Below are positions 8,903-35,012 of a stretch of 56,311 nucleotides of DNA, piece after piece. This stretch comes from a bacterium (lineage in GTDB: Bacteria; Desulfobacterota; Deferrisomatia; Deferrisomatales; Deferrisomataceae). Below the pieces are notes generated by a model. The model was not told the origin of the DNA, searched no databases, and worked only from the letters and a program-made list of their open reading frames with translations. A program made the translations under genes and the position numbers. Every line of letters begins with the position of its first letter. Within the stretch, counting starts at the first letter, position 1. The DNA lies in assembly GCA_027021615.1 (NCBI GenBank), contig JALUTY010000028.1:1-56311 (forward strand), given 5' to 3'.

Positions 8903-9051
8903 GCGCCCTTCCTCCGACGCCGCTGTCAAGCCGACGGTCCTCCCGCAGCCCCTCCGCCTCCGAGACCTTGGAGACGGGACGGGCACCCTGCCGACTCACG
9001 GTTTTCGACCAACGGCCGAAGACCGAAGGTCCTGGAATCGTCCTTGCCCCC

Positions 9052-9079
9052 TCAAGCCCTCCCTCCCCCCGGCCGATAT
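9052..9079 (+). promoter_or_regulatory. Sigma-28 (FliA)-like promoter of cheV
   Basis: GCCGATAT at 9072-9079 matches the sigma-28 -10 box (GCCGATAA) in 7 of 8 positions. A TCAAG -35-like element begins at 9052, with 16 bases between TCAA and the -10 box (usual spacing 15). It lies 45 bases upstream of a chemotaxis gene, where such a promoter makes sense. Confidence 0.45.
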
Positions 9080-9123
9080 ATCACGTAAAAAAGCGGTCAA
9101 AAGAGCTGAAATCGGAGGAGCCC

Positions 9124-10035
9124 ATGGCGATCGGTTACAACATCCTGACCGAGGTGGGGACGAACGAGTTGGAGGTGGTGGAGTTTCGGGTGGGGGAGGG
9201 GGCCTTTGCGATCAACGTGGCCAAGGTTCGGGAGATCGTGAACCTGGCCCCTGTGACACCGCTCCCGGAAGCCCACCCCTGTGTGCTCGGACTGTTCCGC
9301 AACCGGGACGACGTGGTCCCTTTGGTGGACCTGGGCTCATGGCTCGGCGCGGGTTCTCCCCAGGACGAGCGGCGAAGCAAAGTTATCGTGTGTGAGTTCA
9401 ATGGAAGACGGGTCGGATTTTGGGTGCACGGGGTGGAGCGGATCCATCGCTTGAGTTGGGCGGACATGGAACCGGTGGGGGAGCGTTCCCTGACGGGCTC
9501 GCGTTCGGTGGTGGGCTTGCTACGGATGGGGGAGGCACAGGATCGACTGGTTCTGATGATCGACTTCGAGCGGATCGTGGCCGATCTGCTCCCCGAGGAG
9601 ATCATGGAGGCACCGGTGACCGCGGATGAACGACGGAGGGGGCGGCGGGTGCTCGTGGCCGAGGACTCGGCCATGGTGCGGAAGCTCCTGGTGGACCGGC
9701 TGGGGGCAGCCGGCTACCGTGTGGAGGCTGTGGTGGACGGGGAGTCGGCGTGGGACGCATTGGAGCGCGGACCCCGTCCGGATCTGCTCATCACCGACAT
9801 CGAGATGCCCCGGATGGACGGGCACCACCTCCTCAAGCGCATCCGGCAGAGCGAGGCCTCAAGGGACCTTCCGGTGGTTCTCTACTCTTCGATGATCCAC
9901 GAGGAGATGCGCCGGAAGGGCGAGGCCCTCGGAGCCACGGCGCAGCTCTGCAAACCCGATCTGCCCCAGCTGGTGAGCCTGGTTGACCGGATCCTGCTCG
10001 ATCACGACGTGCAACGGAGCGATCCTGCCGCGTGA
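9124..10035 (+). CDS. cheV: Chemotaxis coupling protein CheV (CheW-REC fusion)
   Basis: A 303-residue protein: a CheW domain (residues about 10-160, [20 protein letters not shown] onward) followed by a receiver domain (about 175-295, [14 protein letters not shown], phospho-acceptor Asp in [13 protein letters not shown]). CheV couples receptors to CheA and can dampen signalling when phosphorylated. The ATG at 9124 has GGAGGAG just upstream; a longer open reading frame starts at 8968 but would place that ribosome binding site inside the gene. It is divergent from lexA. The last bases overlap an upstream GTG of the next receptor gene, though that gene probably starts further down. Confidence 0.9.
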
Positions 10036-10094
10036 GGTGCGGCTTCCGGTCGGATCCCCCTTTTCCTCGATCTTGTTTCGCGGAGGAGTTCTCC

Positions 10095-11927
10095 TTGCGT
10101 ATCGGAATCCAACTCAAAGTGTGCGGTCTTCTAACGGGTCTATTGGTGCTGGCGGTCGGGGGGAGCACGTGGGTAAGCACGTCTCGGTCATCCCGGACCC
10201 TGGAGGCTCTAGGTGAGCGGAGCGCCCAGGCCCTTCGGGACTCTGCGGTCGCCCGGGCTCGAGGTGTGTTCGCGAGCCTGGAGACAGGCACCAAGGGGTC
10301 CGTGGAGCGGGGCGAGATGGACAGGTTCGAGGATCTCCTGGTGGATTTGGGCGCGATAGAGGGCGTAGTGGAGGTCGGCCTTGCCGACGCCGAGGGGACG
10401 ATCATTTACGCGAGCCGGGAATCGTCGGTGAAGACGCGCATCGCCCCGGACGTCTTGCAGAAGGCGGCCGCCTCGTCCGAACCGGTGGGGATCCCCCGAG
10501 GCAACCAGATCACCGTGATCCAAGCGCACCGGTTTCGGAGCGAGTGCCTGGGGTGCCACCGCCGGGCGAAACCCGAGGCCCTGGCCGGGGTGCTCTACCT
10601 GCGCTACAGCCTGGCGGATGCCGAGAGGGCCCAGAAGGAGACCATGGCCTTCGTCTCGGAGGCCCGACGGGCAAGCATCCAGGCCGCCATGACCACGGGG
10701 CTTATGAGCCTCGTGCTGGCGACCCTGGGGACCTGGCTCCTGTATGCCTGGCTCGTGACCCGACGGACGCGGCGCTTCGTGGAGCTTCTCAAGAGCATGG
10801 CACAAGGGGAGGGAGACCTCAGCAAACGGCTGCCGTTGGGGTATGTGGACTGTTCCCGCGTGATCGGGTGCGGCCATGAGCAGTGCGCCTCGTTCGGCAA
10901 ACGGGAGGCCTGTTGGAGCCGCGTGGGGTCCATGCAGCTCATTCGGGAGAACATCCAGTGTCCTGCGGTGCTCTCTGGCGAGATCACCGACTGCTCCACC
11001 TGCGAGGTCTTCCGAGCAGCCGAGCGGGACGAGATCGACGAGCTGGCCAACTGGTTCAACATCTTTGCAGACAAGATCCGGTACATGGTGGAGCGGGTAA
11101 AGGGGTCGGCGGCAGAGATGGCCGCGGTGAGCCAGCAGCTTTCGGCAACCACGACCCAGATCGGGGCCAGCAACGAGGAGGTGTCCCAACAGACCCAAGC
11201 GCTCGCGGCGAGCGGCGAGGAGATGGGGGCCACGGTGCACGAGGTCGCGCGCAACGCGGTGGGGGTGGCCCAGGCGGCGGATCGGGCCCGGGGGAGGGCG
11301 TCGGAAGCCGCAGACAAGGTGCGGGAGACCGGGGCGGCCTTGGAGCGGATCGCTGAGGTGGTGACCGGGGCGGGCCACGTGGTGGAGGGATTGAGCTCGG
11401 AGGCCGAGAAGATCGACGTGGTGATCCGCACGATCGAGGACATCGCGGATCAGACAAACCTCTTGGCATTAAACGCGGCCATCGAGGCGGCACGAGCCGG
11501 CGAGCACGGTAGGGGGTTTGCGGTGGTAGCGGACGAGGTGCGGAAGCTCGCCGAAAAGACGGTGAAGGCCACCCAGGAGATCGCACAAACGATCGACGGC
11601 ATCCAGGGGAAGACGCGCCGGGCCGTGGAGGCGATGGGAGAAGGGGTGTCAGCGGTGGAGCAAGGAAAGGCCCTGGGGCGGGAGGCGGCCGGTGCGATGG
11701 CCGAGGTGGAGGGGGATGTGAGCCACGCCGCAGCGCAGGTGGAGCAGATCGCGGCGGCAACGGAGGAACTGACGGCGACCATCGAGAACCTGGCGATGAA
11801 CCTGGACCAGATCGCCCAGGGGGTGGGGGAGAACACGCGGGCCGGGGAGGAGCTTGCTCGAACGGCCGAGACGGTGGCCCGCAAGGCGGACGAGCTGCGG
11901 GGTCTCACCGACCGGTTCCGGACCTGA
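10095..11927 (+). CDS. Methyl-accepting chemotaxis protein with c-type haem site and Cys-rich insert
   Basis: A 610-residue receptor. TM1 is near residues 6-24, a periplasmic sensor follows to about 195, TM2 is near 200-225, then a HAMP-like linker and the methyl-accepting domain to the end. The sensor has Cys151-Leu-Gly-Cys154-His155, a CxxCH haem c motif, as in haem-PAS receptors of Geobacter-like bacteria, suggesting redox or gas sensing. The cytoplasmic linker holds seven cysteines (253, 259, 264, 273, 289, 300, 303), resembling the CW-type Cys clusters seen in related kinases and receptors. I chose TTG 10095, with GGAGGAG upstream, over GTG 10032, because the membrane segment starts right after it. 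The hairpin tip ([17 protein letters not shown]) is intact. It has no C-terminal CheR-docking peptide. Confidence 0.9.
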
Positions 11928-18312: not shown

Positions 18313-20009
18313 ACCATTCGCCGCTTCCCCTCGAAGACCTCGGCGCCCGCCTGTCCCAGGCGGCTCAGTCCGTGACAGAGGCCGCCCAGGCCTCGGAGGA
18401 CCGGTTCATGGCTTACCTGGGCCGGGTCCAGGCGCTCCTCGAGGCGTGCCTGGACCTGGCCAGCCAGGCCGAAGCGGCCTCGGCCCGGTTGGACGGGGAA
18501 GGGCTCGAGGTCCTGGGCTCGGAGCTTCGGCAGGGGCTCCAGGCGTTGGGCCAGTGGGATACGGGAGCGCACGCGGCGACCGGCCTGGACCGGCTGGTCT
18601 CTCCTCTCGGCGATGTGCTTGCGGCGGCAGAAGGGGCGAAGCACTCCGTACGGTATTTGCGGGCTCTCGCGGTCTCGACCCGTATCGAGGTGGCGAGGTT
18701 CGGCGCGGACCGGAGCGATCTGCTGGTTCTTCCCGAGGTGGTTGCCCGCCTCTCCGTTCGGATTGGGGAGCTGTTCGACACCGTGCACGGCCGGTCCCTC
18801 CGCCTGGAGGAGGCTCTCCGGGAGCGAAGGGAGCGGCTGCGAGGGCTCGAGGTCCAGGGGGTGGAGAACCTGCGCCGAGCCGCCACGCATCTGAGCGAGG
18901 CGTTGACCGCGGTGACGAAGGCCTGCTCCCAGGCCCGCTCCGCAGCGCAAGGGGTGGAACGAGCCGCTCGAAGGGCCGGGAACGCTGCAAGCCGGATCCT
19001 CACCTCACTCCAGTCCCAGGACATCACTCGCCAACGGCTGGAGCAGGTGGGGCTGGCCCTGGAAGCTGCCGCGGAGTATGCCCGGCGCCACGACGCCGGC
19101 GAGGAGTCGACGGCCGCAGAGCTTGTCGCGGTCCTTTCCTTGGAAATAGCCCAACTGGATGAGGCCCTGTCGAGCTACGCCGGGGCACTGAAGGCCCTGG
19201 GGCGGGAGTTCGAGGAGATCTCCGGCGCGGCCGCGGGCCTTCGCAGTTCGCTGGAAGGGGTTGGGGTCGCCTCGTGCGAGTCGGCCGTCGCGGGGGACGA
19301 GGGGCTGGGGGCACACATCCAGTCGCTCCAGGACACGAAGAGGGAGGTGGACCAGATGCTCCGGCAGGCGGCGGAGGAGGCAGACGCCCTGACGGAGCAC
19401 GTGGACACCATTGATGAGATCGTTTCCGACCTCGATCTCATCGCCTTGAACGCGATCATCCAGGCGGCCGGGGTGGGCAGCGAGGGCCGAACCCTGGCCG
19501 TGATCGCCTCCGAGATCCAGCGGGAGGCCTCGGAGGCCGGGGAGGTAGGGCGCTGCTTGGCGGGGGCCCTCCGGCGCGTGGGGGAGGAGTCGGCAGCACT
19601 GGGGCGGTGCGGGGAGGCAGGGGAAGGGGGTGACACCCTCGAGATGCTCGCCTCCTTACCCCAGAGGTTCTCGGAGGAGATCCGGGCGTTCAAGGAGACC
19701 CGGCAAGAGGTGGAGGCCGAGCTGGGGGCCCGGTTGGGGCGGCTGGAGGAGGTCCTCCACGAGGCCCACCAGGAGTCGCCGGCCGTGCGCGTGAGAGACG
19801 AGGTGGCGTCGATCCGGCGGGAGATGGCGCTGCTGCTGGAGGCGGCCCGAACTCTGGCTTCCGAAGGGAAGCCGGGCCCAGGGGACCTCCTGAGCCGTGT
19901 ACAGAACGACTACACGATGGAGAAGCAGCGCCTCGTGCACGACGAGGTGGTGGGAGACGGCGTGGAGACGAGCCGGGACGGGTTCGGGGGCAATGTCGAG
20001 CTGTTCTGA
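18309..20009 (+). CDS. Soluble, degenerate MCP-like coiled-coil protein
   Basis: A 566-residue protein with no membrane segment, nearly all alpha-helical with long coiled coils. The segment ILTSLQSQDITRQRLEQV is common in MCP-like and CheZ-like signalling proteins. Near residues 368-410 it has a faint version of the receptor hairpin tip: DLDLIALNAIIQAAGVGSEG instead of [17 protein letters not shown], so the contact residues for CheA and CheW are largely changed. It may bind the array weakly or act in another complex. It begins at ATG 18309, overlapping the kinase stop. The role is unknown. Confidence 0.7.
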   Translation: MNHSPLPLEDLGARLSQAAQSVTEAAQASEDRFMAYLGRVQALLEACLDLASQAEAASARLDGEGLEVLGSELRQGLQALGQWDTGAHAATGLDRLVSPLGDVLAAAEGAKHSVRYLRALAVSTRIEVARFGADRSDLLVLPEVVARLSVRIGELFDTVHGRSLRLEEALRERRERLRGLEVQGVENLRRAATHLSEALTAVTKACSQARSAAQGVERAARRAGNAASRILTSLQSQDITRQRLEQVGLALEAAAEYARRHDAGEESTAAELVAVLSLEIAQLDEALSSYAGALKALGREFEEISGAAAGLRSSLEGVGVASCESAVAGDEGLGAHIQSLQDTKREVDQMLRQAAEEADALTEHVDTIDEIVSDLDLIALNAIIQAAGVGSEGRTLAVIASEIQREASEAGEVGRCLAGALRRVGEESAALGRCGEAGEGGDTLEMLASLPQRFSEEIRAFKETRQEVEAELGARLGRLEEVLHEAHQESPAVRVRDEVASIRREMALLLEAARTLASEGKPGPGDLLSRVQNDYTMEKQRLVHDEVVGDGVETSRDGFGGNVELF

Positions 20010-20701: not shown

Positions 20702-22768
20702 ATGAGCGACGCGTACAGGGAGGTGTTTCTCCAGGAAGCGGGCGAGCTCCTTGCCGAGCTGGAGGAGGTCCTCCTCGAGCTCGAGCAGACCCCTGAGGAG
20801 CCGGACCTGGTGGCCCGCGCCTTCCGGGCGCTTCACACGATCAAGGGTTCCGGTGCGATGTTTGGGTTCGAGGACGTCGCTGCCTTCACCCACGAGGTGG
20901 AGAACGCCTTCGACCGGGTCCGGAGCGGCGAGTCGCGGGTCACCCCCCAGTTGATCGATCTTGGGCTCCGAAGCCGGGACCACATCCGGGCGCTTCTCGA
21001 CGGCACGGCGCACCCAGCAGAGGGCGAGTCGATCCTCGGGGGGCTGCGGGGCGTCCCTGCGGGCGGGGGGGCGGCGGCAGCGCCGGCACATTCCCCCGCA
21101 CCCGGGCCGGAGGCCGAAGGCGGGGCCGGCCCTTGCGTGTACCGGATCCGGTTCGTTCCTCCGGCACACCTCTGGATCACCGGCACCGACCCCCTCCGGC
21201 TCCTGGACGAGCTGCGGGACCTGGGGGAGTGCCGCGTGGTGTGCCACACGGATCGTGTGCCGCCCGTTGATGAGCTCGATCCGGAGGACTGCCACCTTTA
21301 CTGGGACGTGGTCCTCAGCACCGAGCGCGGGGAGAACGCGATCCGGGACGTGTTCCTGTTCGTGGAGGGCGAAAGCGACCTGCGGATCGACCGGATCGCC
21401 TGCGCGGACGGCGATGCAGAGGGGGTGGCTCGGATCGGCGACATCCTGCTCGAGCGGGGCGACGTCTCGGACGAGGATCTCCAGGAAGCTTTGAGCCAAC
21501 AAAAGCGCCTGGGCGAGATCCTCGTGGAAAGAGGAAGGATCTCCCCCTCCAAGGTTGCCTCGGCGCTCGCCGAGCAGGAGGTGCTTCGGAAGGGGCGCGA
21601 GGCGTCGGCACCCGAAGCCACCGTGCGCGTGAGCGCGGACAAGCTCGATCGGCTGGTGGACCTGGTGGGGGAGCTAGTCATCGCCCAGGCCCGCCTGGCC
21701 CAGCGGGCCGAGCGGGGGGACGACGGGGAGCTCCTGTCCATCTCCGAGGAGATGGACAGGCTCACCGCAGAGCTGCGGGACAACGCGCTCAACATCCGGA
21801 TGATGCCGATCGGTACCACCTTCAGCCGGTTTCGAAGGCTCGTGCGGGACCTCTCGGCCGAGCTCGGGAAGGAGGTGGCCCTGGTGACCGAGGGGGCAGA
21901 GACCGAGCTCGACAAGACCGTGATCGAGCGCTTGGGAGACCCCCTCGTGCACCTCATCCGCAACAGTCTCGACCACGGCATCGAACCGCCGGGTGAGCGA
22001 GAGCGGCTCGGAAAGTCTCCCCGGGGTACGGTGGCGCTGGCGGCTCGCCACGCCGAGGCCAACGTGGTGATCGAGATCACCGACGACGGCAGGGGGCTTG
22101 ACCCCGAGGGGATCCGGGCGAAGGCCGTGGAGCGGGGCTTGCTGGCGCCGGACGCTCGTCCATCGGACCGGGAGCTCTTCGATCTCGTGTTCGAGCCGGG
22201 GTTTTCCACGGCCGAAGCGGTCTCCAGCGTGTCGGGCCGCGGAGTGGGTATGGATGTGGTGCGTCGGTCCATCGAGGCCCTGCGGGGAACGGTGGAGCTC
22301 GACAGTGCACCGGGCCGGGGCACCCGGGTGACGATCCGGCTGCCCCTTACCCTGGCCATCATAGAGGGACTCCTCGTGGAGACGGGGAGCAGCTCGTTCG
22401 TGGTGCCCCTGGACCTTGTGGAGGAGTGCGTGGAGCTCGGCCGAGCCGAGCGCACGCGCTCCCACGGCCGGCGGATCATCGAGGTTCGAGGTCACCTGGT
22501 GCCTTACGTGCGACTGCGCGAGTGGTTCGGCCTCGGCGGCGAGCTCCCCGAGATGGAGCAGGTCGTGATCGTGGACCTCGACGGTACCCGGTTCGGCTTG
22601 GTGGTGGACCAGGTGGTGGGCCAGCACCAGACCGTGATCAAGACCTTGGGCCGGGTGTACCGGCACGTGGAGGGGCTTTCCGGCGCCACGATCCTGGGAG
22701 ACGGAAGCGTGGCGCTCATCCTGGATCCGCAGAAAATTCACAACGGGGCCGCTGCCGAGGCGGCCTGA
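20702..22768 (+). CDS. cheA: Chemotaxis histidine kinase CheA
   Basis: A 688-residue CheA. Domains: HPt with phospho-His45 ([16 protein letters not shown]), a P2-like CheY-binding domain (about 140-240), a short tandem helical repeat ([17 protein letters not shown] and [16 protein letters not shown], about 243-292) related to the N-terminal module of GspE/MshE proteins, a dimerisation domain (305-370), HATPase (N-box [13 protein letters not shown] near 418, G-box DDGRGLDP near 461) and a CheW-like P5 (545-680). All catalytic boxes are intact. It lies between cheY and the receptors, 15 bases after cheY. The GspE-like repeat also occurs in other CheA proteins of this broad group. Confidence 0.95.
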
Positions 22769-22784: not shown

Positions 22785-25622
22785 ATGACACTTCGCCTCA
22801 AGGACGTGCGGATGAAACCCAAGCTCATCTCGCTCTTTCTGGTGACCGGCCTCGTGCCGCTCGCCCTGACCGGTTACTGGTCGGCTCGGAAGGCCGGTCA
22901 GAGCCTCAAGGCGACCGCAGTAGAGAAGCTCGTGGCCGTTCGGGACATCAAAGAGAAGGAGGTCGAGGACCTGTTCAAGACCTGGCGGTCGGATCTCCAC
23001 AGCCTTGTGCAGGCCTCGGCGAACCTGCGGCAACAGGCCTTGGGCAAGCTCCGGGCGATCACGGGGCTCAAGGGACGCCAGGTTTCGGATTACCTGGAGA
23101 AACAGATCGCAGACATCGAGGCCTTTTCCCGGAATCCCGTCGTGATTGACGCGGCCCACAAGTTCGGCCAGATCTTCAATGTTGACGGCTCCGTGGACGA
23201 GAAGCTGGAGGCCTTCTTCCGCGACAAGTACCACGGGGCGTTCGCATCCTACGCCGAGCGCAACGGGTACGCCGACGTGATCCTCCTCGGCCCCGAGGGC
23301 CGGGTGGTCTACTCGGTGACAGGGCAGTTCCCCCCCGGAACCTCGGTTGCGGGTCCGCCCCTGGCCGGGACAGGGCTTGCCCGGGTGTTTGCAAGCACGG
23401 CTGACAGGGCCGGCTTCGAGGACTACGACGCGTTCGAGGCGGCTGGCGGTGCCCAAGCCCTGTTCGTGGGGGCGCCGGTACGGGACGGGGATGGAGCGGA
23501 TCTAGGCCGGCTCGTCTACCAGATCGCCCCGGGGGCGATCGACGCCATCGTGCAGAACCGCCTGGGCCTGGGGGAGACCGGCGAGACGTATCTCGTGGGC
23601 CGGGAAGGAAGCCGCACGGAGCTCCGGAGCGACCTCGTGGTGTACGCGAAGAAGAACGCCAACCTCAAGGTTGGCTATGCCGTATCGAGCCCCTACATCG
23701 ATGCCGCCCTCGCCGGCGAGACCGGGGCCGGCATCTTCACCAACACCTTGGGCCAGTTGATCATGGCCTCCTTCCAACCCATTGAAGCGCCGGGGCTCCG
23801 ATGGGGCATTGTGACCATCATGAACCTGGAGGAGGCCCTGACGTCCCGCCTCGAAGGGAGCGACAAAGATTTCCTCACCGATTTCGTGAAGGGCAAAGGG
23901 TACCCGGATCTCCTCCTCGTACACCCCGAAGGTAAGGTGTTCTACAGCGTGGCCCGTGGCAAGGACTACGGGCAGAACGTGCTGAAGGGGGATCTGGCGG
24001 ACTCGCCCCTGGGTATGGCGGTACGAACGGCCATCGAGACCCGGTCGGCCGCCGTGGGAGATCTCGCCCCCTACAAGCCCTTGGGGGGGGAACCGGCCGG
24101 GTTCCTGGCCGAGCCCCTGGTGTACCAGGGTGAGGTGGAGCTCGTGGCTGCCGTGCGCCTGCCCCTCGAGGCCGTAAACCGCATCATGCAGCAGCGGGCC
24201 GGCATGGGCCGCACCGGCGAGACCTACCTCGTGGGGTCGGACAAGCGGATGCGCTCGGACTCGTTCCTGGATCCGGAGGGGCACTCGGTCCGGGCCTCGT
24301 TTGCCGGAACCGTGGAGCGGAACGGTGTCGACACAGAGGGGGTCCGGGAGGCTCTGGCCGGCCGAAAAGGCGCCCGGTTGATCGCGGACTACCGCGGGAG
24401 CCCCGTCTACAGCGCGTTCACCCCGTTAAAGCTCGAGGGGGTGAAGTGGGCCCTGCTTGCCGAGGTAGACGAGGCCGAGGTCCAGGCGCCGGTCCGGTCA
24501 CTGGCTCTGTCGATCCTGATCACCGGCGGCGCCCTGGCGGCGGGCGTGGTGGTCTTGGCCCTGGTGGTGGCCTCGGGGATCGCCCGACCCCTCGCCCACG
24601 GGGTGGCCTTCGCAAAGGCCGTGGCCAGCGGCGAGCTGGAGGCCGATCTCGACGTGGACCAGAAGGACGAGGTGGGGGATCTGGCCCGGGCCCTCAAGGA
24701 CATGGTGGCCAAGCTTCGGGATGTGATCGAGGGGGTGAGGTCGGCATCGGCGCAGGTGGCCGCCGGCAGCCAGGAGATGAGCTCGGGAGCGCAGCAGCTG
24801 AGCCAGGGGGCGACGGAGCAGGCGGCCTCGATCGAGGAGGTGACCTCCAGCATGGAGGAGATGGCGGCGAACGTTCGCCAGAACGCCGAGAACGCGAAGG
24901 AGACGGAGCGGATCGCCGGCCAGGCTGCGGAGGATGCCCAGAAGGGGGGCGAGGCGGTGGACGAGACGGTGGGGGCGATGAAGGAGATCGCGGAGAAGAT
25001 CTCAATCATCGAGGAGATCGCCCGGCAGACGAACCTGCTGGCGCTGAACGCGGCCATCGAGGCGGCGCGGGCGGGGGACGCGGGCAAGGGGTTCGCGGTG
25101 GTGGCGGCGGAGGTTCGCAAGCTTGCCGAGCGCAGCGGCAAGGCGGCCACGGAGATCAGCGAGCTTTCGCGCTCGAGCGTGGAGGTGGCGGAGCGTGCGG
25201 GGCAGATGCTCGAAAAGATCGTGCCGGACATTCAACGCACGGCCGAGCTGGTGCAGGAGATCAGCGCGGCGTCGGCCGAGCAGAACGCGGGGGCGGAGCA
25301 GATCAACAAAGCGATCCAGCAGCTCGACCGGGTAATTCAGCAGAATGCTTCGGCGTCGGAGGAGATGGCATCGACGGCGGAGGAGCTGGCAGGGCAGTCG
25401 GAGCGGCTGCGGGAGGCGGTGGCGTTCTTCAAGCTGGCCGAGGGGGGGTTGAGCCCGACGCAGCCGGCGGCTCCGGCGAAGGTGAGTCGGGTCCAGCCGT
25501 TGCCTGCTCGCCGGGAGGCCACCGCGGCCGCGCCGCCCCGGGCTGTTGCTGCTGGGGAAGAGGGGGGTGGGATCGCGTTGGCGTTGGAGGACACGGAGGA
25601 CGAGGAGTTCCAGCCCTACTGA
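22785..25622 (+). CDS. Methyl-accepting chemotaxis protein with tandem Cache-type sensors
   Basis: A 945-residue receptor. TM1 is near residues 13-30. The periplasmic part (35-575) seems to hold two similar Cache modules: each has a [17 protein letters not shown] / [17 protein letters not shown] segment and a GETYLVG segment. TM2 lies near 583-605, followed by HAMP and the methyl-accepting domain with an intact tip ([17 protein letters not shown]). A Pro/Ala-rich linker leads to a C-terminal EFQPY, which fits the x-aromatic-x-x-aromatic form of CheR/CheB docking peptides. The ligand is unknown; Cache domains often bind small acids or amines. The last 900 bases are part of the duplicated block. 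Confidence 0.92.
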
Positions 25623-26182
25623 CCGAGGCGAGGGGAGGGGGTCCGGGGCCCAGGGCCGTGCCCCCGTGGAGAGGGAGAGGGATCCGATGGCCGAACGGGC
25701 GCAGGAACGAGGCGTGGGAGGGCAGTACCTGACGTTCACGCTGGAGGGGGAGCGGTTTGCGCTGGAGATCGGGCGTGTGCGGGAGGTGTTGGAGTTTCGG
25801 GGGGCAACGCGGGTGCCGCGGACACCGGAGTTCATGCGGGGTGTGATCAACTTGCGGGGGAACGTGGTGCCGGTGGTGGATCTGAAGGCGAAGTTCGGGA
25901 TGGGCGTGACGGAGAGCACGGTGGACACGTGCGTGGTGATCGTGGAGGTGGAGATCGACGGAGAGGCCACGGTGCTGGGGGCGCTGGCGGACTCGGTGCA
26001 GGAGGTGATCGAGCTGGATGCCGGGCAGGTGGAGCCGCCGCCGCGGATGGGGGCGGGGCTGGACACGGCGTTCATCCGGGGGGTGGGGAAGCTGGGGGAG
26101 GAGTTCGTGATCTTGGTGGACATCGACCGGGTGTTCTCGGCCGAGGAGCTCGTGGCGGTGACGGCCGGGACCGGAGAAGCCG
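24711..26182 (+). repeat. Copy 1 of a 1,472-bp direct repeat (receptor signalling domain + cheW)
   Basis: From AAGCTTCGGG at 24711 through most of cheW to 26182, the sequence reappears at 27540-29011, offset by 2,829 bases. The copies look identical at every stretch compared. The border is sharp on both sides. It covers the receptor's methyl-accepting domain, its tail, the spacer and all but the last few codons of cheW. Confidence 0.9.
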
Positions 26183-26202
26183 GGGCGCGAACGGGCGAGT
26201 GA
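25687..26202 (+). CDS. cheW: Chemotaxis coupling protein CheW, copy 1
   Basis: A 171-residue CheW: two beta-barrel subdomains with the usual [20 protein letters not shown] and [19 protein letters not shown] segments. It joins receptors to CheA. It follows the first receptor by 64 bases; GGGAGAGGGA precedes the ATG. It is identical to the second CheW except for its last ten residues (GARTGE end rather than DVGAED), because the duplication border falls just before the stop. Confidence 0.93.
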
Positions 26203-26294
26203 GGCTCGGAGGCGAGAGACGTCCTCGACCCGGGCCGGTCTGCCGACCTCAAGAATCGACGATCCCTCGAACATGGATAACGAGAATCAGGGAG

Positions 26295-26319
26295 CGGCGA
26301 AACGGTGACGGTTTCGCCG
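26295..26319 (+). terminator. 9-bp perfect hairpin after cheW copy 1
   Basis: CGGCGAAAC (26295-26303) pairs exactly with GTTTCGCCG (26311-26319) across a 7-base loop. It lies in the 167-bp space between cheW and the second receptor. There is only a short T run after it (CTTTC), so it may be a weak terminator, a transcript-stability element or an attenuator. Confidence 0.45.
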
Positions 26320-26369
26320 TCGGGGCTTTCCAAGTCATGACCCGACGAGCTCGGGCAGGAGGATCAACG

Positions 26370-28451
26370 ATGTTGAGCAACGTGAAGGTCGGCACGAAGT
26401 TGATGGGGGGCTTTTTGTTGGTGAGCGCGGTCACGCTCGTGGTGGGCCTCGTGGGGTATCGGGGCATGGGCCAGATCATGGCCGCGTACGACGACGCCGC
26501 AGAGGTCCGGCTGCCTGGGGTGACCGCGTTGCTCACCATTCAGGAGAAGACGACAGCGCTCAAATCGGCGGAGAGAACGTTGCTCAACCCCACCTTGGGG
26601 TTGGATGAGAAGGTGCGTGAGTACGAAAACTTCGAGAAGCGCACCGCGAAGGCGGAAGAAGCCATAAAGGCGTACGAAGCGCTACCACGGGAACCGGAAG
26701 AGGAGAAGCTGTGGCAGGAGTTCCTGGGGCGGTGGGAGGCGTACGGGGCCGAGCTCGGGCGTTTTCAATCCCTTTCGAAGGAAATGGATCGGTTCGGAAT
26801 CCTGAACCCGACGGCACTGCGGGTGGAGCTGAAGGACCGGGAGATCGAGCACTGGCAGTGGCTCTTCGATCTCAACGAGACCGTGGTGGAGATGGTGCCG
26901 TTCGAGAGGACCACCGATCCGTCCCTGTGCGCCATGGGGCGCTGGCTCGCCACCTACACCACGACCAACCCGCGGTTCGCCGCTGCCATGAAGGACTTTG
27001 CCGTACCCCATGCCCGGCTGCACAAAAGCGCAGAGAAGGTCATGGAGATCCTAAACGGCCCCGGGTCCGAAGAGGAGAAGAAGCGGGGGATGATGGGGGT
27101 CTTCGACGAGGAAGCCATGCCGGCGTTCCGGGGGGTGTTGGCCGTTTTCGGCCGCATGCACCAGGTGGTGGCCGAAGCAGACAAGATGCTGGCGGCGATG
27201 AACGAGCAGGCCAAGACCAAGAACCGAGAGGCCTACGAGGCCGTAGAAGGCAGCTTGGGCAACCTCGTGACGCTGAATCGGAAGGTGACAGCACAAAGGA
27301 TGCGCCAGATGGACCGGAAGACCCAGACGGCCAGGAGGGTTTTGATCGGGGCGATCGGGGTGGGGGTGCTGGCCGCTGCACTGCTCGGCTTCCTCTTGTC
27401 CCGGGCGATCACCCGGCCCCTTCAGCACGGGGTGAGGTTCGCCGAGCGGCTGGCTGACGGCGACCTCACCGTGGACGTCGTCGTCTCGGGCCGTGACGAG
27501 GTGGGGCAGGTGATGGCGGCTTTGAAGACGGCCATCGGGAAGCTTCGGGATGTGATCGAGGGGGTGAGGTCGGCATCGGCGCAGGTGGCCGCCGGCAGCC
27601 AGGAGATGAGCTCGGGAGCGCAGCAGCTGAGCCAGGGGGCGACGGAGCAGGCGGCCTCGATCGAGGAGGTGACCTCCAGCATGGAGGAGATGGCGGCGAA
27701 CGTTCGCCAGAACGCCGAGAACGCGAAGGAGACGGAGCGGATCGCCGGCCAGGCTGCGGAGGATGCCCAGAAGGGGGGCGAGGCGGTGGACGAGACGGTG
27801 GGGGCGATGAAGGAGATCGCGGAGAAGATCTCAATCATCGAGGAGATCGCCCGGCAGACGAACCTGCTGGCGCTGAACGCGGCCATCGAGGCGGCGCGGG
27901 CGGGGGACGCGGGCAAGGGGTTCGCGGTGGTGGCGGCGGAGGTTCGCAAGCTTGCCGAGCGCAGCGGCAAGGCGGCCACGGAGATCAGCGAGCTTTCGCG
28001 CTCGAGCGTGGAGGTGGCGGAGCGTGCGGGGCAGATGCTCGAAAAGATCGTGCCGGACATTCAACGCACGGCCGAGCTGGTGCAGGAGATCAGCGCGGCG
28101 TCGGCCGAGCAGAACGCGGGGGCGGAGCAGATCAACAAAGCGATCCAGCAGCTCGACCGGGTAATTCAGCAGAATGCTTCGGCGTCGGAGGAGATGGCAT
28201 CGACGGCGGAGGAGCTGGCAGGGCAGTCGGAGCGGCTGCGGGAGGCGGTGGCGTTCTTCAAGCTGGCCGAGGGGGGGTTGAGCCCGACGCAGCCGGCGGC
28301 TCCGGCGAAGGTGAGTCGGGTCCAGCCGTTGCCTGCTCGCCGGGAGGCCACCGCGGCCGCGCCGCCCCGGGCTGTTGCTGCTGGGGAAGAGGGGGGTGGG
28401 ATCGCGTTGGCGTTGGAGGACACGGAGGACGAGGAGTTCCAGCCCTACTGA
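26370..28451 (+). CDS. Methyl-accepting chemotaxis protein with CZB-like zinc site in the sensor
   Basis: A 693-residue receptor. TM1 is near 12-30 and TM2 near 323-345, bracketing a helical periplasmic sensor. In that sensor His161 (EHWQWLF), Cys187 (LCAMGRWL), His214 and His218 (PHARLHK) reproduce the His-Cys-His-His ligand pattern of CZB zinc-binding domains. CZB is best known in soluble receptors such as TlpD, where it responds to oxidants. After TM2 come HAMP and a methyl-accepting domain that is identical to that of the preceding receptor, including the C-terminal EFQPY. The ATG follows AGGAGG. Confidence 0.92.
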
Positions 28452-29011
28452 CCGAGGCGAGGGGAGGGGGTCCGGGGCCCAGGGCCGTGCCCCCGTGGAG
28501 AGGGAGAGGGATCCGATGGCCGAACGGGCGCAGGAACGAGGCGTGGGAGGGCAGTACCTGACGTTCACGCTGGAGGGGGAGCGGTTTGCGCTGGAGATCG
28601 GGCGTGTGCGGGAGGTGTTGGAGTTTCGGGGGGCAACGCGGGTGCCGCGGACACCGGAGTTCATGCGGGGTGTGATCAACTTGCGGGGGAACGTGGTGCC
28701 GGTGGTGGATCTGAAGGCGAAGTTCGGGATGGGCGTGACGGAGAGCACGGTGGACACGTGCGTGGTGATCGTGGAGGTGGAGATCGACGGAGAGGCCACG
28801 GTGCTGGGGGCGCTGGCGGACTCGGTGCAGGAGGTGATCGAGCTGGATGCCGGGCAGGTGGAGCCGCCGCCGCGGATGGGGGCGGGGCTGGACACGGCGT
28901 TCATCCGGGGGGTGGGGAAGCTGGGGGAGGAGTTCGTGATCTTGGTGGACATCGACCGGGTGTTCTCGGCCGAGGAGCTCGTGGCGGTGACGGCCGGGAC
29001 CGGAGAAGCCG
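27540..29011 (+). repeat. Copy 2 of the 1,472-bp direct repeat
   Basis: Matches 24711-26182. The first differing base downstream (29012) creates the ATG of cheR, while copy 1 has G there. The likely ancestral order is cheW-cheR, with copy 1 inserted upstream by tandem duplication; the two sensors then differ. Confidence 0.9.
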
Positions 29012-29031
29012 ATGTCGGAGCCGAAGACTGA
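28516..29031 (+). CDS. cheW: Chemotaxis coupling protein CheW, copy 2
   Basis: A 171-residue CheW identical to copy 1 up to residue about 165, then ending in DVGAED. It overlaps the cheR start by 20 bases. Having two equal CheW genes behind two receptors with equal signalling domains would raise array components without changing their contacts. The same ribosome binding site precedes it. Confidence 0.93.
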   Translation: MAERAQERGVGGQYLTFTLEGERFALEIGRVREVLEFRGATRVPRTPEFMRGVINLRGNVVPVVDLKAKFGMGVTESTVDTCVVIVEVEIDGEATVLGALADSVQEVIELDAGQVEPPPRMGAGLDTAFIRGVGKLGEEFVILVDIDRVFSAEELVAVTAGTGEADVGAED

Positions 29032-29892
29032 GGCCGGAGGAGCCCTCGGGGGCGCATGGGCCCAGGCGCGGTTGTCCGAGCGGGACTTCGAGCGGATTGC
29101 TCGGTTCATCCAGGACTACGCCGGCATCCGGCTGCCTCCTGCCAAGCACCTCATGGTGGAGGGACGGGTGCGAAAGCGCCTCCGGGAGCTTCGGATCCCG
29201 GCGTTCGAGGCGTACTGTGACCTCGTGTTCGGACCAGACGGCGCCGACGAGCGGCTGCGGCTCGTCGACGCGCTGACAACGAACAAGACGGACTTCTTCC
29301 GGGAGCCGGACCACTTCCGTTTTCTCGCGGCCCGTGCCGTTCCCGACCGGATACAGGCGGACGGGGCTGGGATCCGCCGTCCCCTCACGGTGTGGAGCGC
29401 GGGATGTTCCACGGGAGAGGAGCCTTACACCCTGGTGATGGTGCTGCTGGACGCGGTGGTGTCGAGGCTGCCGGGATTCCGGTTCGATGTGCTTGCCACG
29501 GATCTTTCAACGCGGGTGCTGGAGGTCGCCCGCCGGGCAGTGTACCCGGAGGAGCGGATCGGCCCGGTGCCGCCGGAGATGCGGCGGCGCCACCTTCTCA
29601 GGAGCCGGGACCCTTCGCGCGGGTTGGTGCGGATGGCCCCCCACGTTCGACGTCGCGTGCGGTTCCGGCGCCTCAACCTCATGGAGGATCCCCGATTTCG
29701 CGAGCCCATGGACATCGTGTTTTGCCGCAACGTGATGATCTATTTCGAACGCCCTATCCAGGCCGCCCTGCTGGAGAAGTTCTGGCGGGTCCTAGCCCCT
29801 GGGGGGTACCTCTTCCTGGGGCACTCGGAGACGCTGACCGGAGAGAACGATCGGTTCCGGCCGGTGGCGCCCACGGTTTATCAGCGCCTTCC

Positions 29893-29896
<4 letters not shown>
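29012..29896 (+). CDS. cheR: Chemoreceptor methyltransferase CheR
   Basis: A 294-residue protein with the N-terminal helical CheR domain (FERIARFIQDYAGIRLPPAK, NKTDFFREPDHF) and the SAM-binding domain (VWSAGCSTGEEPYTLVMVLL, then DIVFCRNVMIYFERP). It methylates glutamates on receptors using S-adenosylmethionine. The ATG lies within the end of cheW copy 2. The FCRNVMIYF motif is diagnostic. It may dock on the EFQPY tails of the two receptors upstream. Confidence 0.95.
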
Positions 29897-31490
<1,594 letters not shown>

Positions 31491-31510
31491 TGGAACTCGG
31501 GAGGAAGAGC

Positions 31511-33100
31511 ATGGGCAACGGATGGCTCGAGCGGTTCCGGAGTCTGACATGGATCGAGCAGATCGAGGAGATCGACCGAGTGGAGCGGGAGGGCGAGGTA
31601 GAGAGGGTCTCGGAGCTCGCGGCTCTGTCCCACGACCCCACGCTTTCCGGCACGGTGGAACGGGCGCTGCACGAGGCGGTTCTTGCGCTCCTGTCGTCCG
31701 ATGCGGTGAGGCTGAGAGACGAGCTCGAGCGGGCGGACGAGGTTCTCCTCCCGTTTTGCCTCCAGGCCGCCCTCCGGGCTGGGGATCCAGGGCTCGAGGC
31801 CGGTCTCCTGTCGGCGTTTCGGCGTGCGCAAGACCCCAAGGACGGCACGGCCGCCCTGATGGCGCTCTCCCGGATCGGAAGCAGAGAGGCGATGCCCGTG
31901 TTCCGCGAGGCGGTCTCCAACCCGGACCCGCTGGTCCGATCGGTGGCGATCGACGCGCTGGGAAGAATCGGGGACAGACAGAGCGTTGAGACCCTCCAGG
32001 ATCTCGTGCGGAGGGAGACCGCGGGGGTTTGCAGCCTGGACACCGCGCAGGCGGTGGAAGCCTTGGGCCGAATCGGATCGACGGAGGCCCTGGTCTTTCT
32101 TGTCGACAATGTCCACCACCCCAACCCGACCGTGCGGAGGCTCGTCCAGGAGGCGCTGGTCGCCCGGGGAGACGACGCCGTTCCCCACCTGCTCGCGGTG
32201 ATGGAAACGGGCGGCACGGACGAGCGGGTCTTGGCTGCCAACGCACTAGGCCTGATCGGAACCCGGTGTGCTTCCGATGCCCTGGTCGATGCCATGGACC
32301 GGGGGTGGGCGGACCACCCCAACGTGAGGGCTGCAGTATACGAGGGGTTGGGAGGGGTCGCATCCCTCAAGGCAATCGTGTGCCTGATAGACGGCCTGCT
32401 GGAGCCCGACGAGATCACCCTTCTGGCCGTGGTGTCGGCCCTGGAGCGGGACCCCACCGACCTGGTCGTGGACAAGGTGGCCCAGGTGCTCGGAGCCCCC
32501 GAGCAGGGGGAGCGGGTGGCGAGGGCCCTCGTGACGACCGGTTGCGGGAGGCTGGTGGCTCGGCTGTACGAACGGGAACAGACCCGACAGGCTCTGGACC
32601 GGGCCCTCGATCACGTGGCCTCGCCCGACGCCGCCGAGGCCTTGGCCCAGGCCCTGGAACGAAGCGGGGCCCCGGGGGCGGCCCAGGCCGCCGCCCGTCT
32701 TCGTTGTGATGTGGGCGGCTCCACAAAGGGACGGGTCCTCATCGCCGACGACGCCCGGTCGGTCCGGTACTTTTATGAGGCGGTGCTCCGGCAGGAGGGC
32801 TGGGAGGTCATCACCGTCGAGGACGGCAAGGCGGCCTGGGACCGGATCTCGAGGGGGGAGCCCTTTGACCTGCTCATCACGGACCTCAACATGCCGCGGA
32901 TGGACGGCATCGAGCTGGTGACCCGCCTCCGGAACTCGCAGGTGGAGGCGTCGACCCCTGTGGTCATGGTGACCACAGAGTCTGAGTCAGACCAGATCCA
33001 CCTTGCCCGCACCGCAGGTGTCGACGCCTTCCTCACCAAACCGGTGGCCGCGGACGTTTTAAGCGAGACCGTGGAGCGGCTGGCCTCCCAAAGGAGCTGA
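31511..33100 (+). CDS. HEAT-repeat protein fused to a receiver domain
   Basis: A 529-residue protein. Residues about 90-390 are HEAT/PBS-lyase-like repeats (units such as ALMALSRIGSREAMPVFREA, AIDALGRIGDRQSVETL and VLAANALGLIGTRCASDAL). The end is a receiver (about 410-529, VLIADDARSVRYFYEA, Asp in LLITDLNMPRMDG). A CheA-phosphorylated receiver on a protein-binding scaffold suggests an output or adaptor for the pathway. ATG 31511, behind GGGAGGAAG, is preferred to an ATG at 31490 that overlaps cheB. HEAT-REC proteins are found near chemosensory operons, but their function is not established. Confidence 0.85.
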   Translation: MGNGWLERFRSLTWIEQIEEIDRVEREGEVERVSELAALSHDPTLSGTVERALHEAVLALLSSDAVRLRDELERADEVLLPFCLQAALRAGDPGLEAGLLSAFRRAQDPKDGTAALMALSRIGSREAMPVFREAVSNPDPLVRSVAIDALGRIGDRQSVETLQDLVRRETAGVCSLDTAQAVEALGRIGSTEALVFLVDNVHHPNPTVRRLVQEALVARGDDAVPHLLAVMETGGTDERVLAANALGLIGTRCASDALVDAMDRGWADHPNVRAAVYEGLGGVASLKAIVCLIDGLLEPDEITLLAVVSALERDPTDLVVDKVAQVLGAPEQGERVARALVTTGCGRLVARLYEREQTRQALDRALDHVASPDAAEALAQALERSGAPGAAQAAARLRCDVGGSTKGRVLIADDARSVRYFYEAVLRQEGWEVITVEDGKAAWDRISRGEPFDLLITDLNMPRMDGIELVTRLRNSQVEASTPVVMVTTESESDQIHLARTAGVDAFLTKPVAADVLSETVERLASQRS

Positions 33101-33666: not shown

Positions 33667-35012
33667 TCAGGGGGGGCGTAGGTCGTACTTGGAGATCTTC
33701 GCGTAGAGTGTTTTTCTGTCCACTCCTAAGAGCTCCGCCGCACGACTCTTGTTCCAACCGGTTGCCTCTAGCACGTCTCGGATGTGTTCCCGCTCCACCA
33801 TCCACAGTGACGCCAAGCCGCGGCGCCTGGGGGAAGACCGGACGCGAGCGTCCATTTCAAAAGGGAGTAGATCGGGGGTGAGGAGAGGGCGTTCCGCAAG
33901 GATGCACGCACGGCGCACCACGTTCTTGAGCTCGCGGACATTGCCCGGCCACCGGTAGGCTTCCATGGCTCGCAGCGTCTCTGGGGCGACCATCCACTCC
34001 CCTCCCTTCCGAGGAGGGATCGAACGGAGAAAGTGGTAGGTCAACGGTTCGATGTCGGGAACCCGTTCCCGAAGCGGCGGAAGCCTCACGGCGAACAGAT
34101 TGATCCGATAGTATAGGTCCTCTCGAAATAATCCACACCGGACCCTCTCTTCCAGGCTCCGGTTCGAAGCGAACATGAGCCGGACACTGACCCGGATGTC
34201 CCGGTTTCCCCCGAGACGTCGAAAGGTTTGTGTCTCGAGGACCCGTAGTAGTTTTACCTGCACGTCCAGCGGCATCTCCGAGACCTCGTCCAGGAACAGG
34301 GTGCCCCCGTCTGCGAGCTCGAAGGCGCCCGCTCTGTTTTTCGTGGCCCCGGTAAAGGCCCCCGCTGTGTGCCCAAACAGCTCGCTTTCGGCCGTGTGTA
34401 CATCCAGTCGGCCGCAGTTGACGGCTACGAAAGGGCGGTTAGCACGGGAGCTGCCAGCGTGGAGTGCCCGGGCGACCATCTCTTTGCCGGTCCCGCTCTC
34501 TCCGAGGATCAACACCGGCTCCATGGTGTTGGCCACCCGCTCCACCAACTCCACCGTCTTCAGGAACGCCGGGCTCCTCCCGACCAGGAGGTGTCCCGTA
34601 GATCGCTCCGCTTCAATGCGCAGATTTATGTTCTGGAGTCGGAGTCTATTTTTTTCGTGAGCCTTGTTTACGACCAGCTCGAGCTCTGTGAGCTTGATGG
34701 GCTTGGTCAGATAGTCGTATGCTCCCAATTTGATGCATTCGACGGCCGACTCAATGGTGCCATGGCCGGTCAGTATGACGATCTCTGGAATGGTAGTTTC
34801 CTTTCTCATCTCCTTCAGCGTCTGAACCCCGTCCAGGCCGGGCATCCGGATGTCGAGCAGGACCACGTTGAAGATCTCTTCTCGGTACCGGGCGAGCCCC
34901 TCCTCGCCGTCCCTGGCGGTCTCCACGAGATGTCCGGCCCGGCCGAACTCCTTGCTGAGAAGCCGGCGCAACGGTTCCTCGTCGTCCACCACGAGGATCT
35001 TTGCCCGATCCA

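Follow-up and report, generated by a model that had tools for sequence, protein, structure and literature searches.

A question of general reach is how chemoreceptors gain new inputs and yet still fit the signalling array that is already there, and Campylobacter provides a known precedent. In Campylobacter jejuni, Tlp2, Tlp3 (CcmL), and Tlp4 carry identical signalling domains beneath sensors that are about 30% alike (PMC9769880). A recent swap of domains has been described for Tlp11 (CcrG; PMC5080441), and extensive recombination among Campylobacter Tlps has been reported (PMC6433261). In the open-access literature on chemoreceptor gene conversion and domain swapping, with most subscription papers falling outside this scope, no bacterial report was found outside Campylobacter. 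Working hybrids of P. aeruginosa sensors and E. coli Tar have been engineered with joints within TM2 or right after HAMP (PMC10653921). In Geobacter, many receptors with diverse sensing domains are tied to several che clusters (PMC2577667); neither gene conversion nor signalling domains identical to one another came up in a term search of the main text of that paper.

The window analysed here (positions 1 to 56,311 of contig JALUTY010000028.1 of a Deferrisomataceae genome) holds a homogenisation event that is recent and clearly bounded, and for which Campylobacter offers a known counterpart. As in Tlp2, Tlp3, Tlp4, and Tlp11, sensors of low identity stand over identical or nearly identical signalling domains. 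Whereas two such Campylobacter receptors can lie far apart, bounding invertible elements of ~92 kb, the window pair is arranged in tandem within a che operon. Its sensors come from two separate families, dCache and 4HB-CZB, and its copied block includes cheW; this inclusion, together with recurrence across a phylum, is the added interest over the Campylobacter case. The setting is similar to that of the Geobacter clusters described in PMC2577667, in that many receptors with diverse sensing domains are tied to che clusters. The engineered hybrids were made in the laboratory, whereas the window case is natural and carried cheW along; its junction is of the after-HAMP type, and a second genome considered below (G106) has one joint near TM2/HAMP and one after HAMP. 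By their position in the sequence, these natural joints, one type beside TM2 and the other immediately behind HAMP, are similar to those of working laboratory hybrids, and natural copying would use the same joints as the engineers.

The operon and its repeated block

The genes follow in the order cheA, receptor 1, cheW1, receptor 2, cheW2, cheR, cheD, cheB, and a gene for a HEAT-repeat protein with a receiver domain (Table 1). Both receptors are transmembrane methyl-accepting chemotaxis proteins, with PF00015, PF00672, and their sensor domains above cut-off, and both CheW copies contain the CheW-like domain PF01584 (E 1.8e-36). The two sensors, which the initial annotation had called unrelated (tandem Cache and CZB-like), were assigned by Pfam, in agreement with that description, to dCache_1 in receptor 1 and to 4HB_MCP_1 plus CZB in receptor 2. 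The CZB assignment is marginal (PF13682, 30.1 bits vs a cut-off of 29.4), and its zinc ligands and zinc binding are putative. The start of receptor 2 was placed at the ATG at 26370, which follows an AGGAGG motif. A regulatory fold in the inter-unit gap was considered and dropped: the gap had no significant overall fold, shuffled sequences being as stable (z −0.32), and no clear T-tract was seen within it.

Table 1. Coordinates of the features discussed (window positions unless a contig is named).
Feature	Position	Strand	Content
cheA	20702..22768	+	Pfam Hpt, H-kinase_dim, HATPase_c, CheW; orthologs 63-66% in G004, G005, G007
Receptor 1	22785..25622	+	dCache_1 sensor, HAMP, MCP signalling domain (Pfam); 945 aa
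cheW1	25687..26202	+	171 aa; predicted start MAERAQERG; Pfam CheW and translation
Inter-unit gap	26203..26369	+	unique sequence; short stem at 26295-26319
Receptor 2	26370..28451	+	4HB_MCP_1 and CZB sensor, HAMP, MCP signalling domain (Pfam)
cheW2	28516..29031	+	overlaps cheR start
cheR	29012..29896	+	Pfam CheR, CheR_N
cheD	29893..30429	+	Pfam CheD; exact start uncertain
cheB	30426..31490	+	Pfam CheB_methylest, Response_reg
HEAT-repeat and receiver protein	31487..33100	+	conserved in G005 and G007 operons
Repeat copy 1	24711..26182	+	receptor 1 signalling half from HAMP end, 64-bp gap, cheW1 without last 7 codons
Repeat copy 2	27540..29011	+	position ancestral by comparison, joined to cheR; G004 shows matching gene order
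G106 shared stretches	L153 3797-6049, L153 7395-9647, L154 3095-5214		2.1-2.25 kb, 99.2-99.96%

The two copies of the block had been noted as apparently identical at an offset of 2829 bases, and base-by-base comparison bore this out: 1472 of 1472 positions agreed, with no mismatch and with exact edges. The same 1472-bp block was recovered by repeat search and by blastn, as the sole such pair in the window, and is genuinely present in this assembly. Searched against the whole genome, it returned its two copies and otherwise only short matches of 69–85% to other receptors. The alignment also answered the initial annotation's question of silent differences, since ~356 synonymous sites and the 64-bp non-coding gap were unchanged between the copies. 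By the rule of three, zero differences over ~356 synonymous sites place dS between the copies below about 0.8%, while dS between the repeat and its nearest relative, in genome G004, was ~1.

In receptor 1 the repeat sets in at residue 643, where HAMP ends, and it breaks off seven codons (20 bases including the stop) short of the end of cheW. The block had been described as signalling domain plus cheW; the signalling half and most of cheW are indeed inside it, but the last seven cheW codons are not, and the C-terminal tail is the sole difference between the CheW1 and CheW2 proteins (...GEAGARTGE vs ...GEADVGAED). Copy 2 passes directly into the start of cheR. The first base beyond each edge was already mismatched between the copies. 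The last 150 nt of the 5′ flank, which are homologous HAMP-coding sequence, aligned ungapped and in register at 0.547 identity (random placements: mean 0.295, maximum 0.48); identity in the 3′ flank was ~0.3, the background level.

Several features of the surrounding region were also observed. A few genes upstream of cheA, at 18315–20009, lies the gene for a receptor-like protein whose MCPsignal match falls below threshold and which is conserved at 21–31% in the operons of relatives; at 8968–11927, a CheV-like protein (CheW plus receiver) is followed by a receptor of a different signalling class. The entire chemosensory region, 8909–33683, is missing at this site in G002, a genome of the same genus that matches the window at 96% up to 8908 and again at about 85% from 33684; the match to G001 likewise picks up at 33684. 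Between flanks conserved with the window, G002 carries a different 10.6 kb, with ORFs (named by eye) resembling BCCT transporters and MttB-like, corrinoid, and RACo-like proteins. The region 8909–33683 is a variable island, gained in the window organism or lost in G002. A comparison of sister strains drew on these two same-genus genomes, G001 and G002, both without the operon, the window genome being the sole one of its species compared.

Origin of the identical copies

In G004, which belongs to the same order, the locus reads cheA-receptor-cheW-cheR with a single 4HB-CZB receptor that matches receptor 2 at 48% from end to end (the CZB match of this G004 receptor does not reach the Pfam cut-off). 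At the same locus, G005 and G007 each carry one receptor, with no recognised sensor domain in G005 and a 4HB sensor in G007. In the tree of signalling domains, the repeat grouped with G004 (support 100/97) and next with G005 and G007, and its sequence therefore belongs to the lineage of receptor 2. On these three lines of comparison (gene order in G004, the match to receptor 2, and the tree), copy 2 occupies the ancestral position, and it is likely the source of the copied sequence. Since the single receptors of G004, G005, and G007 differ in their sensors, the comparison indicates a turnover of sensors here, above a signalling half and a cheW that stayed in place.

The dCache sensor of receptor 1 has full-length homologs (32–41%) in distant families, where most of them are joined to signalling domains of another class. 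In G213, however, a homologous dCache sensor on the same signalling class lies directly after an orthologous cheA, so the order cheA-dCache exists independently. The HAMP of receptor 1 agreed with that of the G213 dCache receptor at 28/52, with G004 at 27/52, and with receptor 2 at 22/52. Because its HAMP is nearer to those of same-class receptors than to the HAMP of receptor 2, receptor 1 did not arise recently by copying receptor 2 and giving it a new tip; most likely it derived from a same-class receptor whose signalling half was replaced.

The initial annotation had read the copies as a recent duplication or as ongoing gene conversion beneath unrelated sensors. The identity and the sharp edges support a recent homogenising event, while ongoing exchange in this organism is hypothetical. 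As to the mechanism of the event, we lean towards gene conversion, in which the neighbouring pair would recently have overwritten an older dCache receptor-cheW pair in its signalling half and its cheW. The sequence of events would be as follows: the operon held two tandem receptor-cheW pairs serving one CheA, pair one being an older dCache receptor with its own cheW and pair two consisting of the ancestral 4HB-CZB receptor and the cheW beside it. Conversion of the RecA type would then recently have replaced the dCache pair's signalling half and cheW with those of its CZB neighbour, along a tract that began where HAMP ends and stopped near the 3′ end of cheW, at the limit of homology. The former, separate signalling domain of receptor 1 would have been lost in the process. 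The outcome would be two receptors that differ in their sensors but are alike in their methylation sites and in the tip that binds CheA and CheW. From established receptor biology, both should join one mixed array and be adapted alike by CheR, CheB, and CheD.

Zero differences between the copies are the picture left by a single copying event of either kind, conversion or duplication, and the choice between the two turns on the flanks. Older homology beyond the tract was found on the 5′ side, in the HAMP alignment given above. On the 3′ side, the non-copied tail of cheW1 stops in exact register with cheW2, a property noticed post hoc that 1.1% of window 20-mers would share (p 0.011), and there was no significant alignment past this edge, where a 16-nt match did not exceed chance and the local score was attained by 24.5% of random placements. 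Because of the in-register HAMP homology and the in-register cheW1 stop, conversion is favoured over a single duplication with sensor capture, on discriminating evidence that is modest.

Under that alternative, which we consider possible but unlikely, the signalling half of receptor 2 and its cheW were copied upstream once, by a recent partial duplication, and fused in frame at HAMP to a dCache sensor captured from another receptor, with no prior dCache receptor-cheW pair at the site. The identity and the HAMP joint are accommodated equally well by this course; same-order relatives carry one receptor at the locus, as it would have them, and the window genome has no second copy of this dCache sensor bar one very weak match. 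However, the insertion would need to fall exactly between cheA and receptor 2, and a junction seven codons before the cheW stop would need to be followed by an in-register stop by chance (the 1.1% above). Furthermore, a simple head-to-tail duplication would predict a match to the cheA-receptor junction in the gap at 26183–26351, and none was found.

Any reading of exact identity also depends on the assembly. The window genome is a 134-contig draft and, since no 16S match was found in it, is probably a short-read MAG, in which case the exact identity may be partly due to assembly collapse. Metagenome assemblers merge small variants; a 1,472-bp exact repeat is longer than short reads reach, and where it was resolved as a loop, small differences between the copies could have merged. 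That the repeat is altogether such an effect, one collapsed graph node walked twice, with true copies that differ or are of another number, is nevertheless improbable. The contig contains no N, the unique junction from the repeat through 26183 to receptor 2 requires real reads joining the two, and a like pattern is present in G106, which is a single contig. Both contig flanks match the single-contig, same-genus G002 at 93–96%, so the binning is right, and a mis-binned contig was rejected. High similarity of the copies is required even if exactness is unproven.

Finally, an old duplication held identical by strong protein-level selection has a negligible claim: receptor signalling tips are conserved in general, but ~356 synonymous sites and 64 non-coding bases unchanged, where dS to G004 is ~1, rule out protein-level constraint as the cause, unless the synonymous identity is itself wholly a product of the assembly.

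Signalling domains and sensors across the phylum

Among 395 genomes of the phylum, this signalling class was present in 57. The single contig of G106 encodes three receptors with 4HB, CZB, and 4HB sensors and common cytoplasmic halves. Their shared stretches (2250 nt with 1 difference; 2086 nt with 9–10 differences) lie below different sensors, including arrays of HAMP_2 domains, with one joint near the TM2/HAMP border and one at the HAMP end, at the HAMP/signalling border. In G206, G301, and G152, signalling domains were 92–96% identical in the closest pairs, so that near-identical signalling domains under unrelated sensors are found in these three genomes and in G106, as in the window pair (100%). 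In the signalling-domain tree, many paralogs clustered by genome. Among testable receptors, 37/64, in 20/25 genomes, had a signalling domain nearer to that of a paralog in their own genome, whose sensor is less related, than to that of their sensor's homolog elsewhere, although many margins were small and cross-genome partners often distant; the widest margins belonged to the window pair and G106. Receptors of G217, G390, and G278, which share a genus, and of G016 and G087 showed ordinary orthology, and homogenisation is therefore frequent but not universal.

Natural swapping of sensors on one scaffold, raised in the initial annotation, is thus backed by the comparative data as a recurring outcome in the phylum. 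Judged from these sequences, receptors seem to have acquired new inputs repeatedly in nature through the copying of signalling halves from one receptor to another, and the locus and its relatives suggest that such copying from neighbour to neighbour is a common route in this phylum, whose genomes each carry many receptors. One caution follows for phylogeny: signalling-domain trees in such genomes can track conversion and not receptor descent.

A more ambitious reading, which we regard as doubtful, is that the direct repeats, being identical and in frame, serve as a cassette for sensors, the cheW-linked block being a phylum-wide shuttle for new ones. Recombination between the repeats in silico removed 2,829 bp, comprising receptor 2 and cheW1, and left the dCache receptor 1 intact, with cheW and cheR unchanged and in frame. 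RecA recombination would delete a unit in this manner, and unequal exchange between sister chromosomes would add one. If this were so, populations would contain operons with one sensor alongside operons with two, and the block with cheW would serve across the phylum as a general means of fitting new sensors to existing arrays.

Draft contigs L159 and L160 (G301) and L171 and L172 (G342) were observed to break inside or near this signalling domain. Near-identical receptor pairs are probably under-counted, contig breaks being expected if such copies defeat assembly. The reverse pattern was seen in G065 (L212, L211), where sensors 87–90% identical are carried on signalling domains 77% identical.
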